DNA of 64,000 nucleotides from an uncultured Muribaculaceae bacterium (GTDB lineage: Bacteria; Bacteroidota; Bacteroidia; Bacteroidales; Muribaculaceae), in assembly GCA_944321865.1 (NCBI GenBank), contig CALUMZ010000004.1, positions 1-64,000 of the forward strand. The letters are read 5' to 3'. Each line of letters starts with the position of its first letter. Position 1 is the first letter of the stretch. Positions 47,016 to 55,330 of this stretch are shown piece by piece. The notes beneath the pieces are model-generated. The model saw only the letters and a program-made list of their open reading frames with translations. It was not told the DNA's origin and did not search any database. Position numbers and translations under genes: made by a program.

Positions 47016-48002
47016 TTAGTAGCTGTAAATCACGTTAAGCACAGTCTGCCCTACGGCCTTGAGCGAAGCCGAATCGATGATGTCGGGGGTGTCGGCCGTA
47101 GTGTGCCACTGCCTGAAGAATCCGGTGCCGGTGGCATCGGTCTGGTCGATGATGTCGATGCACGGAATGCCGGCGCGGTTGACGAAAAGATGGTCGTCGG
47201 TCACGGCACCGCCGGGAGTGTCGACAAAGTAGTCGCCGTAGCCGGCCGTCCGGGCCGTTTTCCAAACCTCGTCGACAAACCCTCGGGCATAGTGGGTCGA
47301 GAAATACTCACGGGCAAATACTGCGCCACCCGCACCCACCATGTCGAGCAATATGCCATACATGGGGCGGTAGCCGGGACGGTGCGGATTGGCCGTCCAA
47401 TATTGCGTGCCAAGTGCCCACGTATCATCGTTGCCCGCACCAGAGTCACCCCAGTCCTCGGCATCGACCAACAGAATATCTACACCTATCGAGGGTTTGG
47501 CCGCAGCCAGTTGCCTTGCCACTTCGAGCAGCACGGCCACTCCGCTTGCGCCGTCGTTGGCACCCGGCACGGGGTCTCGGCGGCGCGCAGGATCGGGGTC
47601 ATTGTCAGCCCACGGGCGACAATCCCAGTGGGCGAGCAACAGCAACCGCCGCGAGGCATCGGGGTTGTACTCCCCTATTATGTTGCGGGCGGGTATCATT
47701 GTGCCGTCGAATGTAGTCAGCGACATGCGCTGCTCGGTGACCGAAGCCCCGTATTGCCGCAACTTGCCGGCAAGATAATCGCCACACAGCCGGTGCGCCT
47801 CGCTGCCGGGCACACGCGGCCCGAAAGCACACTGTTCCACCACAAACGCACGAGCCGAGTCGGCACAGAAATCGGCGGCCGGCTTGGCCTCTTGTTTGTC
47901 TTCAACCTGCAACCGACCCTCGCCGGCATTCTGTTGCCGGCCCGAAGAACAGCCCACAAGCGCCAATGCCATCATTATCATTGAAAATAAAAAATACCTC
48001 AT
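47016..48002 (-). CDS. M28-fold lipoprotein, probable glutaminyl cyclase
   Basis: A 328-residue lipoprotein (lipid Cys18 in ALVGCSSG) with an M28/glutaminyl-cyclase zinc fold. Metal and active-site segments: AHWDCRPWAD, PVPGANDGASG, DILLVDAEDWGDSG and QWHTTADTPD. The AHWD.RPWAD form and the later DMVGAGGAVFAREYFS block resemble the type II glutaminyl cyclases of Bacteroidota more than aminopeptidases. These cyclases convert N-terminal Gln to pyroglutamate on exported proteins, which is common in this phylum because signal peptidase cuts leave Gln first. An aminopeptidase role is not excluded. Confidence 0.8.
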   Translation of the reverse strand: MRYFLFSMIMMALALVGCSSGRQQNAGEGRLQVEDKQEAKPAADFCADSARAFVVEQCAFGPRVPGSEAHRLCGDYLAGKLRQYGASVTEQRMSLTTFDGTMIPARNIIGEYNPDASRRLLLLAHWDCRPWADNDPDPARRRDPVPGANDGASGVAVLLEVARQLAAAKPSIGVDILLVDAEDWGDSGAGNDDTWALGTQYWTANPHRPGYRPMYGILLDMVGAGGAVFAREYFSTHYARGFVDEVWKTARTAGYGDYFVDTPGGAVTDDHLFVNRAGIPCIDIIDQTDATGTGFFRQWHTTADTPDIIDSASLKAVGQTVLNVIYSY

Positions 48003-48371: not shown

Positions 48372-48379
48372 TAACTTTG
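48372..48379 (+). promoter_or_regulatory. -7 box of the capsid-like unit
   Basis: TAACTTTG, 21 bp before the ATG at 48401. A TTG at 48346-48348 lies 23 bp upstream, slightly farther than usual. It shows that the two-gene unit has its own host-type promoter and that the longer frame from 48359 is not used. Confidence 0.55.
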
Positions 48380-48400
48380 CCATACCAAACAATAATCGAC

Positions 48401-48901
48401 ATGGAAAACGAAAACATTGAAAAACACGAAGAAACCCTGTCCACACAAGAAGACATGCAGGAGACAAAACCCGAAACGCCCGAACCGGGCAGCGAAACAC
48501 CCGACTTTGCCGGGCAGTTTGCCCGGTGGTTAAACAACCCGTTGGTATCAATCGCAATGACCGATGCCCGACTGTGCCGCTTCATTGGCGACCTGATAGC
48601 CGGCGACAATGCCGACAGTGCCGTAGCACGCAATTTCCCGCACCGACTGCCCGAAATGCCCGCCGATGTTGCCACACGCCACCATCTTGACGAAGACGCA
48701 TCACAGGCCGTATCAAAATTGGGGCAAACCGTGATGAAAGGCGACTGGAGCGATGCTGCCATGAACATATTGCTGCGCGCCGCCCGGCACGACGATGACG
48801 TAAAAAATGCCGAAGCAGCCGGTTACCTGCGAGGGCGTAACGAAGCCATCGAAGTCCACCGCCGTAAACAAATCCATTCTTATTCACCCACTGAATATTA
48901 A
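48401..48901 (+). CDS. Small acidic protein, scaffold-like partner of capsid gene
   Basis: A 166-residue protein with no signal peptide. The first ~45 residues are low-complexity and rich in Glu, Thr and Pro (EKHEETLSTQEDMQETKPET). The rest is helical (FAGQFARWLNNPLVS, LRGRNEAIEVHRRKQ). No named family is recognised. Acidic helical proteins directly upstream of a capsid gene are often scaffolding or delivery proteins in phages. That role is inferred from position and composition only. 22 bp separate it from the capsid-like gene. Confidence 0.65.
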   Translation: MENENIEKHEETLSTQEDMQETKPETPEPGSETPDFAGQFARWLNNPLVSIAMTDARLCRFIGDLIAGDNADSAVARNFPHRLPEMPADVATRHHLDEDASQAVSKLGQTVMKGDWSDAAMNILLRAARHDDDVKNAEAAGYLRGRNEAIEVHRRKQIHSYSPTEY

Positions 48902-48923
48902 TTTTACCAAATATTCCAATATT

Positions 48924-50330
48924 ATGAAAAACATTCAAAACATCTCTTCGGAATGCTCATTGTGGCAAAAATTCATGAAACATCGCAGCACAATACTCCT
49001 GTTGTTGTTTATGACAATAGCCATAGTTTTACTATTGTCGGGCTGCGACATGGGAGACAGTTCGATTGCCCTTGCAGCAGTCATAGCCGGGACCGACGGC
49101 GGCAAGCACATCGTTGACGGCCCTCTGACCGCCGACACGGTAAGGCAGACGGGCAGCGAACTGATGCTTAACGAAATCGACCGGCAAATAGTGAAAATAC
49201 GCCCGATGGCTACGCCGATCGACCAAATCTCGCGTTACGCCCGTCCAAAGCACTCGCAAAGCATGATTGTTGATTATTACACCGGCGACACCAAGCCCAC
49301 GATGTGCACACTGCCCACTGCATACACTGCCTCTAACGAGGGCACTGAAGCCCAGCGAGTGGTGCTGAAAACCGACAACGACGACATGCTTGCCGTGAGC
49401 GACACGCTGATGCTGCCCGGCGTGAAGGGATATGAAGCCGACGGTACCACACCGTCTGACAAGAACCTCGTGCTGTATGTGGCAGCCAAGGACGACTCGG
49501 GCATCACTGTGATGGCACTGAACGGAATCACCATCGACGGTGTTACCAACTGCGTGCCGCCCATACCGGCCAAGTCGGTCATCATCAGAATGGGACGCGC
49601 AGCCACCGAACTCGACGTGCAAACGCCACAATTTGAATCGTTGCCGCAAAAGTCGCAAAACTATTGCCAAATATTCAAGATGCAAGTCGAGCAAAGCACA
49701 CTGATGAAAATAGGCGACAAAGAGGTTGACTGGACGCTGAGCGACCAAGAAGAAGCGGCAATCTACGACATGCGTCTGGGAATGGAAAAGAGTTTCCTCT
49801 TTGGCACCAAACGCCAACTGTATGACTATCGCAAGAAGGAAAATGTGATGTTCACCGAGGGCATCTGGTATCAGGCCGGGAAAGACTTCAGTTATTCGCC
49901 CGACACTTTCGACCAAGACACGCTCATCAGCATGATGCGTGTGGCATTCACAGGCAATGCCGGGTCGAAGCGGAAAGTGCTCATTGGCGGCTCGGCGCTC
50001 ATCGAGGCAATCAACAAAATCGACTATACCAAAGTAGTCAATGCCAAAGACACAGTGACAAAGTGGGGCATCGACTTCACCGAAATCAACAGCAAGTTTG
50101 GGCGATTGTATGTACTGCTGTCGGAGGTGTTTGACGAGTGTGGCATGGAATCGGCAGGCATGATTATCGACCCGGCTTATTTGCAGAAATACAGCCACCT
50201 GCCATTCGGTACCGAAGCCCTCGACCTGAAAAGCGCCGGCGTGCGCAACACCGACGCGCTCGTGCTCACCGAAGCAAGCTGCCTCGTGCTGCGCTACCCC
50301 AAAGCCCACGTGCGCATCACCGCGGAATAA
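48924..50330 (+). CDS. SU10/HK97-like major capsid protein with lipoprotein signal
   Basis: A 468-residue protein. Residues ~60-468 match the layout of the SU10 (DUF5309-type) HK97-fold capsid family: an N-arm with MATPIDQISRYA, QNYCQIFKMQVEQS, the long spine helix LSDQEEAAIYDMRLGMEKS then LFGTKR, the EGIWYQAG turn, SKRKVLIGGSALIEA, FGRLYVLLSEVFDE and the C-terminal beta strands ending KAHVRITAE. Uniquely, the N-terminus is a bacterial lipoprotein signal (TILLLLFMTIAIVLLLSGC, Cys41). A second ATG at 48975 would give a shorter, more classical signal (Cys24). No portal, terminase, protease or tail gene is nearby. It may be a domesticated capsid exported as a lipoprotein, or a remnant with a coincidental hydrophobic arm. 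Confidence 0.7.
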   Translation: MKNIQNISSECSLWQKFMKHRSTILLLLFMTIAIVLLLSGCDMGDSSIALAAVIAGTDGGKHIVDGPLTADTVRQTGSELMLNEIDRQIVKIRPMATPIDQISRYARPKHSQSMIVDYYTGDTKPTMCTLPTAYTASNEGTEAQRVVLKTDNDDMLAVSDTLMLPGVKGYEADGTTPSDKNLVLYVAAKDDSGITVMALNGITIDGVTNCVPPIPAKSVIIRMGRAATELDVQTPQFESLPQKSQNYCQIFKMQVEQSTLMKIGDKEVDWTLSDQEEAAIYDMRLGMEKSFLFGTKRQLYDYRKKENVMFTEGIWYQAGKDFSYSPDTFDQDTLISMMRVAFTGNAGSKRKVLIGGSALIEAINKIDYTKVVNAKDTVTKWGIDFTEINSKFGRLYVLLSEVFDECGMESAGMIIDPAYLQKYSHLPFGTEALDLKSAGVRNTDALVLTEASCLVLRYPKAHVRITAE

Positions 50331-50361
50331 CGACATATCGTCATTACTGCCTCATACAAAT

Positions 50362-50408
50362 ACCCATCGGAGTAAGACTAAACCAGTCTCCACCCGATGG
50401 GTTATTTT
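50362..50408 (+). terminator. Terminator of the capsid-like unit
   Basis: ACCCATCGG (50362-50370) pairs with CCGATGGGT (50394-50402), with an inner GACT/AGTC pair, then TATTTTTT. It sits 31 bp after the capsid-like stop codon. Confidence 0.8.
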
Positions 50409-50474
50409 TTATGCCCAAAAAAAACATTTTTCCATTTTCAAACCAATATTGCTTACATTTTGCAAATATTTAGG

Positions 50475-53621: not shown

Positions 53622-54527
53622 TTATGCAAACAGTTCTAATTGATATAAAGATTTTGGCTTAACCTCTTCCTGTATATCAAAATTGAACACCAATGCTTCT
53701 ATTACCGATTTCCTATTTTCGAGTTTCCCGCCATTATGGTAAAAATGCTCTTTTGTCATGACATTGAAACGGTTCCAATATCGAGCAAGCATTTCATTCG
53801 AGCGATAATCATTGTGATGCCATGTCGACAATATAAATTTGGCCGAGGTATTAGACAAAGCATCAAACAAATATTTCTCATCTTGCTCCGTCCACCCATT
53901 ATAATAATCAACATAACGCCCGAAATAAGGTGGGTCGCAATATATAATATCATCTTTACCGGCACTCGCTATTGTTTCCATAAAAGACATATTGACGAAT
54001 TCCCAGTCATACCTGTTAATAATTCGCCTGACATGTTCTATCTGATTACATATCTTAGTAATATATGCCGGGGCAAAACGTTCGGGCTTCTTGCAAAACG
54101 GCACATTCCATTCCCCTTTGCGATTAAACCGCATCATGCCATTGAACCCGGCACGCGAAAGGAATATGAAATCATACGAATCATATTCTTTATTAAAACG
54201 ATCTCTTACCTCCCTGAAATGTACATAACCATCTTCCTCTGAGGAATCAAGTAACCTGTTCTCTTTTTCAAGATACAACCTCATGGAATGCGGAGTAATT
54301 TCTCCATTCTGTATACTTCTATAAAATTTAATTATATGAGGATTAGTATCCCCGACAATATGCTTTCCATATATAGGGGAATTAAATCCGACAACTCCCG
54401 TGCCAAAAAAAGGTTCAATCCACCTTGCACCAAGATCTATGCCGGAACGAAGTATCAAATCATTTATCCAAGGTACAAGTTTTGTCTTGATACCTTGGGA
54501 TTTTATAGGGGGGACTATAACAGCCAT
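53622..54527 (-). CDS. M.EcoRV-type adenine-N6 DNA methyltransferase
   Basis: A 301-residue D12-class (Dam-like alpha group) enzyme. Visible motifs are VPPIKSQGIKTKLVPW at the start, the SAM-binding EPFFGTGVVG (38-47) and the catalytic DPPY at 198-201. The N-terminal block and the GEWNVPFCKKPERFAPAYI block match my recollection of M.EcoRV closely, so I predict methylation of the first adenine of GATATC. It pairs with the EcoRV-like endonuclease gene that ends 2 bp upstream. The DNA is visibly richer in A/T than its neighbours. Confidence 0.92.
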   Translation of the reverse strand: MAVIVPPIKSQGIKTKLVPWINDLILRSGIDLGARWIEPFFGTGVVGFNSPIYGKHIVGDTNPHIIKFYRSIQNGEITPHSMRLYLEKENRLLDSSEEDGYVHFREVRDRFNKEYDSYDFIFLSRAGFNGMMRFNRKGEWNVPFCKKPERFAPAYITKICNQIEHVRRIINRYDWEFVNMSFMETIASAGKDDIIYCDPPYFGRYVDYYNGWTEQDEKYLFDALSNTSAKFILSTWHHNDYRSNEMLARYWNRFNVMTKEHFYHNGGKLENRKSVIEALVFNFDIQEEVKPKSLYQLELFA

Positions 54528-54529
54528 AA

Positions 54530-55330
54530 CTATTCCAATTTCTTCAACAAATCTTGTTTGCTTGCCAAAAATTCCTTATATGTCGATAAATTTGTATAAT
54601 TGGGTTTGCCAATACCTGCACTGCGAGCATCACCTGCATTATAAAAATTCATCCAATAATCGTCAAAGACTTCTTCGCCAAGCAAGGCAAACGTACCATT
54701 CCCGTTAACTAAATTGTCCAACCCGATTACGCTCCCTATATTGCGAGTATTTCCGCTTCCGGTACGATCGCTGGCTATTTTCCATTTGGGTTGCACAAAA
54801 AAAGTAAAATCCCTTATGACCGATTTTATTGCAGCAAGTTCACTGACTTTATATATGCTACCTTCATGTATGATTTCGGCACTTTGCTTGTACAAAATAC
54901 CCAATATCAAGTGGCATTTATATTCGCCATAAGGATAATCTGTATTTTTCTTTTTGTCTCTTTGCCTGAAATATCCCCAATACGAACCAAGTGTAAACCC
55001 ACACGAACGGCTGTCGCTATAAAAACTTGACTTAAAATCCAGTGCATATATATTCCCATCCGAATCTTTAAAAGTAATATCCGGATAAAAATTTTGTGCC
55101 GAAGGGAATTCCACAGTCATGCCATTCCTTGCCGCAAACGAAATCAAGTGTGGCACAAGAATTATCTCTACAATCTTAGAAATTACTTTCGTGTCATTAG
55201 TGATTGAATATATATTTTTGTTCACATCGATGAATCCTTTTATAATCCACTCACCATCACTCGTTTCAAGTAATGACTTATATGATTTCACTTCCTCTGA
55301 AAGCAGTTCCAAGAAAAGTTCCTTATTCAT
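54530..55330 (-). CDS. EcoRV-like type II restriction endonuclease
   Basis: A 266-residue endonuclease. The PD-(D/E)xK centre is Asp84 (QNFYPDITF), Asp98 and Lys100 (ALDFKSS), with Glu55 at the position of EcoRV Glu45. The segment GSGNTRNIGSVIG also matches EcoRV. It should cut GATATC at its centre, leaving blunt ends. It is the first gene of the two-gene restriction-modification unit. No controller (C) protein gene is visible. AT-rich composition supports acquisition by transfer. Confidence 0.92.
   Translation of the reverse strand: MNKELFLELLSEEVKSYKSLLETSDGEWIIKGFIDVNKNIYSITNDTKVISKIVEIILVPHLISFAARNGMTVEFPSAQNFYPDITFKDSDGNIYALDFKSSFYSDSRSCGFTLGSYWGYFRQRDKKKNTDYPYGEYKCHLILGILYKQSAEIIHEGSIYKVSELAAIKSVIRDFTFFVQPKWKIASDRTGSGNTRNIGSVIGLDNLVNGNGTFALLGEEVFDDYWMNFYNAGDARSAGIGKPNYTNLSTYKEFLASKQDLLKKLE

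Follow-up and report, generated by a model that had tools for sequence, protein, structure and literature searches.

The window, by which we mean the whole 64,000-nucleotide stretch of Muribaculaceae DNA analysed here, carries adjacent genes for a scaffold and a major capsid protein that, on balance, we think probably belong to a vertically inherited gene transfer agent (GTA) derived from a domesticated SU10/VP1-like podovirus. As far as we found, it would be the first GTA candidate in the Bacteroidota. Muribaculaceae are a major gut family and, if this reading is correct, a conserved, host-owned DNA-packaging particle would provide a standing route of gene exchange in the gut. No mention of a GTA in connection with Muribaculaceae was found in the open-access literature, although subscription or unpublished work may exist, and open-access papers that name both GTAs and the Bacteroidales describe none in that order in the parts accessible to us.

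Judged by sequence and predicted fold, the 468-aa protein is a genuine SU10-type major capsid homologue with the HK97 fold. It belongs to the Pfam family SU10_MCP (PF17236; 5.9e-49, 167.6 bits against a curated cut-off of 24.1), it matches phrog_26635 (6.8e-96) and the major head protein family phrog_1328 (3e-9), and a profile comparison with the solved capsid of VP1 (9in6) gave an E-value of 7.7e-16. A search of the NCBIfam models gave no match. The AlphaFold model (mean pLDDT 75) retrieved with Foldseek the capsids of VP1 (3.5e-20) and phicrAss001 (2.3e-13), followed by those of SU10, HK97 and the encapsulins; residues 40–70 are placed with low confidence in this model, and the N-terminal segment ahead of them is a separate helix. 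The SU10/HK97 layout read from the sequence in the preliminary description thus agrees with Pfam, the PHROGs, the VP1 profile and the predicted fold, and the doubt it raised, that the fold might prove unlike HK97, falls away. Encapsulins likewise are host-encoded shell proteins with this fold, but they come without portal, terminase and tail parts, and the capsid protein here is nearer to those of SU10, VP1 and crAss phages in both sequence and fold. A stand-alone shell with a cargo-loading peptide and no packaging genes is not what was found, portal, terminase and tail genes being conserved together with the capsid gene, and an encapsulin-like compartment was rejected.

The gene immediately upstream, in the same arrangement as in phages, encodes an acidic protein (30 D/E against 18 K/R residues) that, going by its shared motifs, is the scaffold. 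It matches phrog_22323 (3.6e-4), the family of the phage protein in the scaffold position, and it has in common with the scaffold of related phages the motif GxxRGRN and, in most other host genera, the C-terminal motif R(R/K)SVW, which supports the role of scaffold that had been suggested for this partner. Host scaffolds are shorter than phage scaffolds. Together with a putative promoter and a putative terminator the two genes form a unit (Table 1), whose other neighbour, opposite the peptidase gene, is a DUF4954 gene (PF16314 1.8e-223). The -7 box, both open reading frames, the terminator and the flanking genes were all confirmed where they had been described.

Table 1. Positions of the capsid unit, its parts and the peptidase gene beside it, and of a rhomboid protease gene at a phage locus
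Feature	Position	Strand	Basis
-7 box TAACTTTG, Bacteroidetes-type, putative promoter of the capsid unit	48372..48379	+	Read from sequence
Scaffold-like acidic protein, 166 aa, shortened phage scaffold	48401..48901	+	PHROG, motifs, position, dN/dS
SU10-type HK97-fold major capsid protein, 468 aa	48924..50330	+	Pfam, PHROG, PDB profile, fold; dN/dS
Hydrophobic segment and lipobox LSGC (Cys41) of the capsid protein	48993..49046	+	Read from sequence; congener conservation
Stem-loop followed by T-run, putative intrinsic terminator	~50363..50412	+	Read from sequence
M28 peptidase on one side of the capsid unit	47016-48002	-	PF04389 1.5e-33
Rhomboid protease gene, adjoining a phage capsid gene	L034 18110-18625	-	PF01694

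No phage gene besides this pair lies in the window, as had been stated in the preliminary description, but the statement does not extend to the genome, where other particle genes lie on other contigs. A local prophage was excluded, the region being free of further phage genes and the capsid loci being single-copy and set among host genes, as seen from synteny at about 40 loci. A few genes away from the capsid unit is a type II restriction-modification pair (window 53622-55330, minus strand), in which a D12 adenine methyltransferase stands beside an EcoRV-type restriction endonuclease (PF09233 1.4e-88).

Many genera retain a cassette in which the scaffold-like and capsid genes are accompanied by c3, a head-tail adaptor of 180 aa, and by a gene for a 470-aa protein, with c6 and c8 following; elsewhere c5, of 800 aa, precedes a gene whose product has 620 aa. 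Of these, the 470-aa product is a portal of the P22 type (P22_portal, PF16510, 3e-13 to 3e-16; phrog_156, 1e-30), shortened in the hosts to about 470 aa as against 650–670 aa in phages. Immediately before the portal gene, four loci in two genera (L102, L107, L108 and L114; g18 and g19) carry a gene for a protein of 131–140 aa (cluster c33). The protein of 620 aa matches phrog_2 (1.8e-18) and is the large subunit of the terminase. Its Walker A, Walker B and coupling motifs and its nuclease D/E/DD residues are kept in most host copies; in terms of sequence, LKARQWGGST, the HLSE box and ST(A/N)G, together with D495, E556 and D661-D662 of the nuclease (BKO1-TP3 numbering), persist in most genera. 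The small terminase is probably c6, to judge from a short motif that it holds twice repeated and from the position of its gene near that of the terminase. Host and phage c5 match each other profile to profile (1.1e-16 over 584 columns), and a PDB profile search with c5 gave no match. A low-confidence model of the phage c5 (pLDDT 54.5) found its best, weak matches among the short-tail proteins of cyanophage A4, VP1 and SU10, and these matches and the position of the gene fit a tail nozzle-like protein. Neither a lysis gene nor a receptor-binding gene was identified. In one genus, g30, terminases are broken or eroded and the capsid is fast-evolving, which suggests decay or changed function; in L062, L063, G188 and other genomes of this genus the terminases are truncated or interrupted, and the capsid branch is very long.

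Profile searches covered 198 Muribaculaceae genomes, 141 of them high-quality. The capsid was matched in 182 (135 of the high-quality genomes) and in 29 of 30 genera, usually as a single copy, ten of the 182 matches being weak (E > 1e-60); some matches, above all such weak ones, may be remote or prophage copies. Portal (186 genomes; 135 high-quality), terminase (181; 134), nozzle-like c5 (176; 132) and adaptor c3 (166; 119) were matched on a similar scale, and each of these five genes is normally present as one domesticated copy per genome. At the level of the order, 22 of 295 genomes had a capsid match, distributed over Muribaculaceae and six other GTDB families, with one match prophage-like; full-length portals occur in the same six sister families, prophage-like portal matches in two further families, and both genes are nearly missing elsewhere in these 295 genomes. 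Near-identical loci belong to Muribaculaceae, and Candidatus Avimuribaculum pullicola falls in the genus of the window. In the genome of the window the genes are dispersed, with the capsid on contig C4, the portal on C16, c5 on C36 and the adaptor on C52; contiguous particle-gene cassettes persist in some other genera. It had been proposed that the capsid gene stands alone and serves a compartment only. That reading is not supported: across the family the capsid is conserved in company with portal, adaptor and nozzle-like protein, and in congeners with the terminase as well. Homologues always embedded in complete prophages would have told against the preliminary description, but relatives of the capsid were found beyond prophages.

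Capsid, portal, terminase, c5 and c3 are each matched in all eight congeners (8/8), and in the window's own genome four of the five are matched (capsid, portal, c5 and c3). No domesticated terminase was found in that genome, and the syntenic site is without one. In a congener the terminase has two flanking genes; their counterparts in the window's genome sit on contigs C75 and C9 (L398 and L400), and neither has a terminase beside it. Because both flanks were located in this way, a gene hidden in a contig gap is disfavoured and loss is the likelier explanation. The strain of the window therefore appears to have lost its terminase, though a copy may have relocated out of sight.

The particle genes are inherited vertically with the host and are under purifying selection. 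In trees of 26 genomes, in which five of the six sister families were sampled, capsid and rpoB (RpoB) agree on four bipartitions, of which three are deep; in 2000 label shuffles the number shared averaged 0.14 and did not exceed 2. Among the groups common to both trees are a 12-genus clade, one that unites the window's genus and four more, and the five sister families in the sample. Horizontal spread between families was considered, and vertical descent is preferred because these five families form a single clade in both trees. Correlation of capsid with rpoB distances is modest (Mantel r 0.25, p 0.018; r 0.17, p 0.07 without g30), as is expected if rates vary, and is clearer for portal (0.47) and terminase (0.60). 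Within the window's genus, where synonymous sites are near saturation, dN/dS is about 0.09 for the capsid, 0.08 for the portal and 0.25 for the scaffold. A fuller, phage-like cassette survives in the sister families: five of the six have the scaffold and capsid genes beside a gene for fumarase, continued in some cases by c19 and c3, and the same fumarase lies near a c6-c8-c5-terminase cluster in one genus of Muribaculaceae; such fumarase-linked cassettes fit one ancestral insertion that was later dispersed. The proposal that the capsid gene is a domesticated one is upheld, and the gene is not a prophage remnant.

Homologous parts are encoded within one genome each by the Bacteroides phages BKO1-TP3, BS-TP4 and BF1-TP2 (PQ571269, PQ571277 and PQ571263), which have scaffold, capsid, adaptor, portal, c6 and terminase in common with the host set and whose capsid proteins begin, like that of the window, with a hydrophobic N-terminus. 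The c5 gene was identified in BKO1-TP3; for BF1-TP2 and BS-TP4 the stretch covered was shorter. Unlike the host set, these are whole autonomous phages in which a rhomboid protease gene adjoins the capsid gene.

It is possible from these relationships to outline how the genes may have come to their present state and what they may do. A SU10/VP1-like podovirus would have entered the common ancestor of Muribaculaceae and the six sister GTDB families, after which its genes would have been dispersed over the host genome and passed on vertically. Scaffold and capsid protein would build a procapsid on the portal, and the terminase would fill the head with DNA, presumably that of the host, since the particle genes are scattered. 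Adaptor and nozzle would close a short-tailed particle that delivers its DNA to kin. The lipoprotein-type signal of the capsid perhaps anchors assembly at the inner membrane; as a counter-point to the GTA reading, a signal of the classical lipoprotein kind would export the capsid protein from the cytosol, the compartment in which the terminase acts. Production and release of particles are inferred, as are packaging and movement of host DNA, the latter two from the packaging machinery that is kept and from the dispersal of its genes, in the manner of known GTAs. What is expected of a GTA is found in that phage-derived head, packaging and tail genes reside in the host genome, descend with it under selection and, being dispersed, cannot package their own whole genome; a terminase with its catalytic residues kept is found in most genera and is absent from the syntenic site in the strain of the window.

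The closest described system is the FpGTA of Faecalibacterium (Borodovich et al. 2026, PMC12946183). There too a gut bacterium, of the Bacillota, carries podovirus-like head, portal, scaffold and terminase genes at separate loci, two in number, and particles with no visible tail, packaged DNA and proteomics have been shown. The Muribaculaceae set differs from it in belonging to the Bacteroidota, in extending over a family and six sister families where FpGTA is described from one genus, in being further scattered and in being known from genes alone; the accessible parts of that report mention no membrane signal on the FpGTA capsid, whereas on the capsid here such a signal is the unusual feature. 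RcGTA, BaGTA and BhGTA (Kogay et al. 2022, PMC9662315) also have Caudoviricete-derived particle genes that descend vertically with the host, but they are of independent origin and other phage ancestry, and their function has been demonstrated.

The preliminary description held that the capsid protein starts with a hydrophobic stretch closed by a lipobox, and this is present as claimed, with the hydrophobic residues at about 24–38 and the lipobox LSGC ending at Cys41. The n-region, h-region, lipobox and invariant Cys of a bacterial lipoprotein are all there, as predicted from the sequence and from conservation in the genus. It had also been supposed that capsid proteins lack export signals. For this whole lineage that premise fails, because in the related phages every capsid whose N-terminus could be read, 77 in all, is hydrophobic there. 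The same is true of 10 of 10 sister-family loci and 78 of the 80 host loci nearest the window. A simple lipobox pattern is found in one of the 77 phage capsids. On these counts the hydrophobic N-terminus is ancestral and inherited from the phage, and the lipobox was acquired later, by some host genera. Constraint at the level of the protein is indicated for the N-terminal segment by pN/pS values of 0.34 (phages), 0.42 (the window's genus) and 0.40 (a rumen genus). In genera without the segment, translation starts just ahead of the capsid core. A soluble form made from an internal start was considered and rejected, the Met near the lipobox being inconsistently kept.

If the capsid protein were a true lipoprotein, it could form a membrane-bound or exported lattice independent of DNA packaging, with the acidic protein as its scaffold or adaptor. 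Placement on the membrane or outside the cell is possible given that the lipobox is conserved in several genera, being present in every congener examined, in all 16 loci of the rumen genus and in 53 of the 80 nearest host loci; the constraint on the N-terminal region in the two genera and the retention of the capsid by a strain that appears to have lost its terminase also speak for such a lattice. However, portal, adaptor, nozzle-like protein and the active sites of the terminase are conserved along with the capsid and would be needless for a compartment, the hydrophobic segment was inherited from the phage, and many genera are without it, only 19 of 40 genus representatives having a hydrophobic N-terminus. 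We therefore regard a lattice of this kind as unlikely.

Of the phage loci among L239-L318, 48 cover 14 kb or more, and each of these has a rhomboid protease gene (PF01694 5.5e-8) beside the capsid gene, but none stands beside the host cassettes; the phage capsid segment holds a conserved stretch resembling G-A-S-S-G-V-M-M-A. The phage capsid protein might thus be synthesised at the membrane and cut loose by the rhomboid; hosts, having lost the rhomboid, would have kept, converted or deleted the anchor. Taken as a whole, the proposal is of a capsid built on the membrane, its anchor cleaved by the rhomboid in the phage and, in the host, either deleted or remodelled as a lipoprotein signal, so that the gene-transfer head would be lipid-anchored; it is speculative, and we hold it to be doubtful. 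No work linking a rhomboid protease with a bacteriophage major capsid protein was found in the open-access literature. If the proposal is true, a membrane-anchored capsid and rhomboid in the parent phages would represent a new kind of capsid maturation.

Head genes could also be kept to poison the assembly of related infecting phages in a dominant-negative manner, and related prophages do occur in the same genomes, including that of the window. We find such interference improbable: the domesticated capsids share only about 40% identity with those of phages, which makes co-assembly of the two doubtful, and the catalytic residues of the terminase are kept. The prophage fragment in the window's genome, on contig C56 (L075), carries portal, terminase, rhomboid and a second capsid gene whose product is 42% identical, and its terminase is intact. 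Ordinary decaying prophage remnants, common by chance, would account for the lost or broken genes of certain lineages (g30, and the terminase of the window's strain), but single copies in nearly all species, dN/dS of 0.08–0.09, deep congruence with rpoB and intact reading frames in about 30 genera make this explanation very improbable.

Some database entries for these genes deserve mention. In PQ571269.1 and PQ571277.1 the capsid gene is deposited as encoding a DUF2951 protein and the terminase as a tail spike, and both look misnamed. Five host-type loci (L319-L323), with capsids 53–58% identical, are filed as viral contigs in IMG/VR, and because of these entries it seems probable that virus-mining pipelines mislabel host loci.
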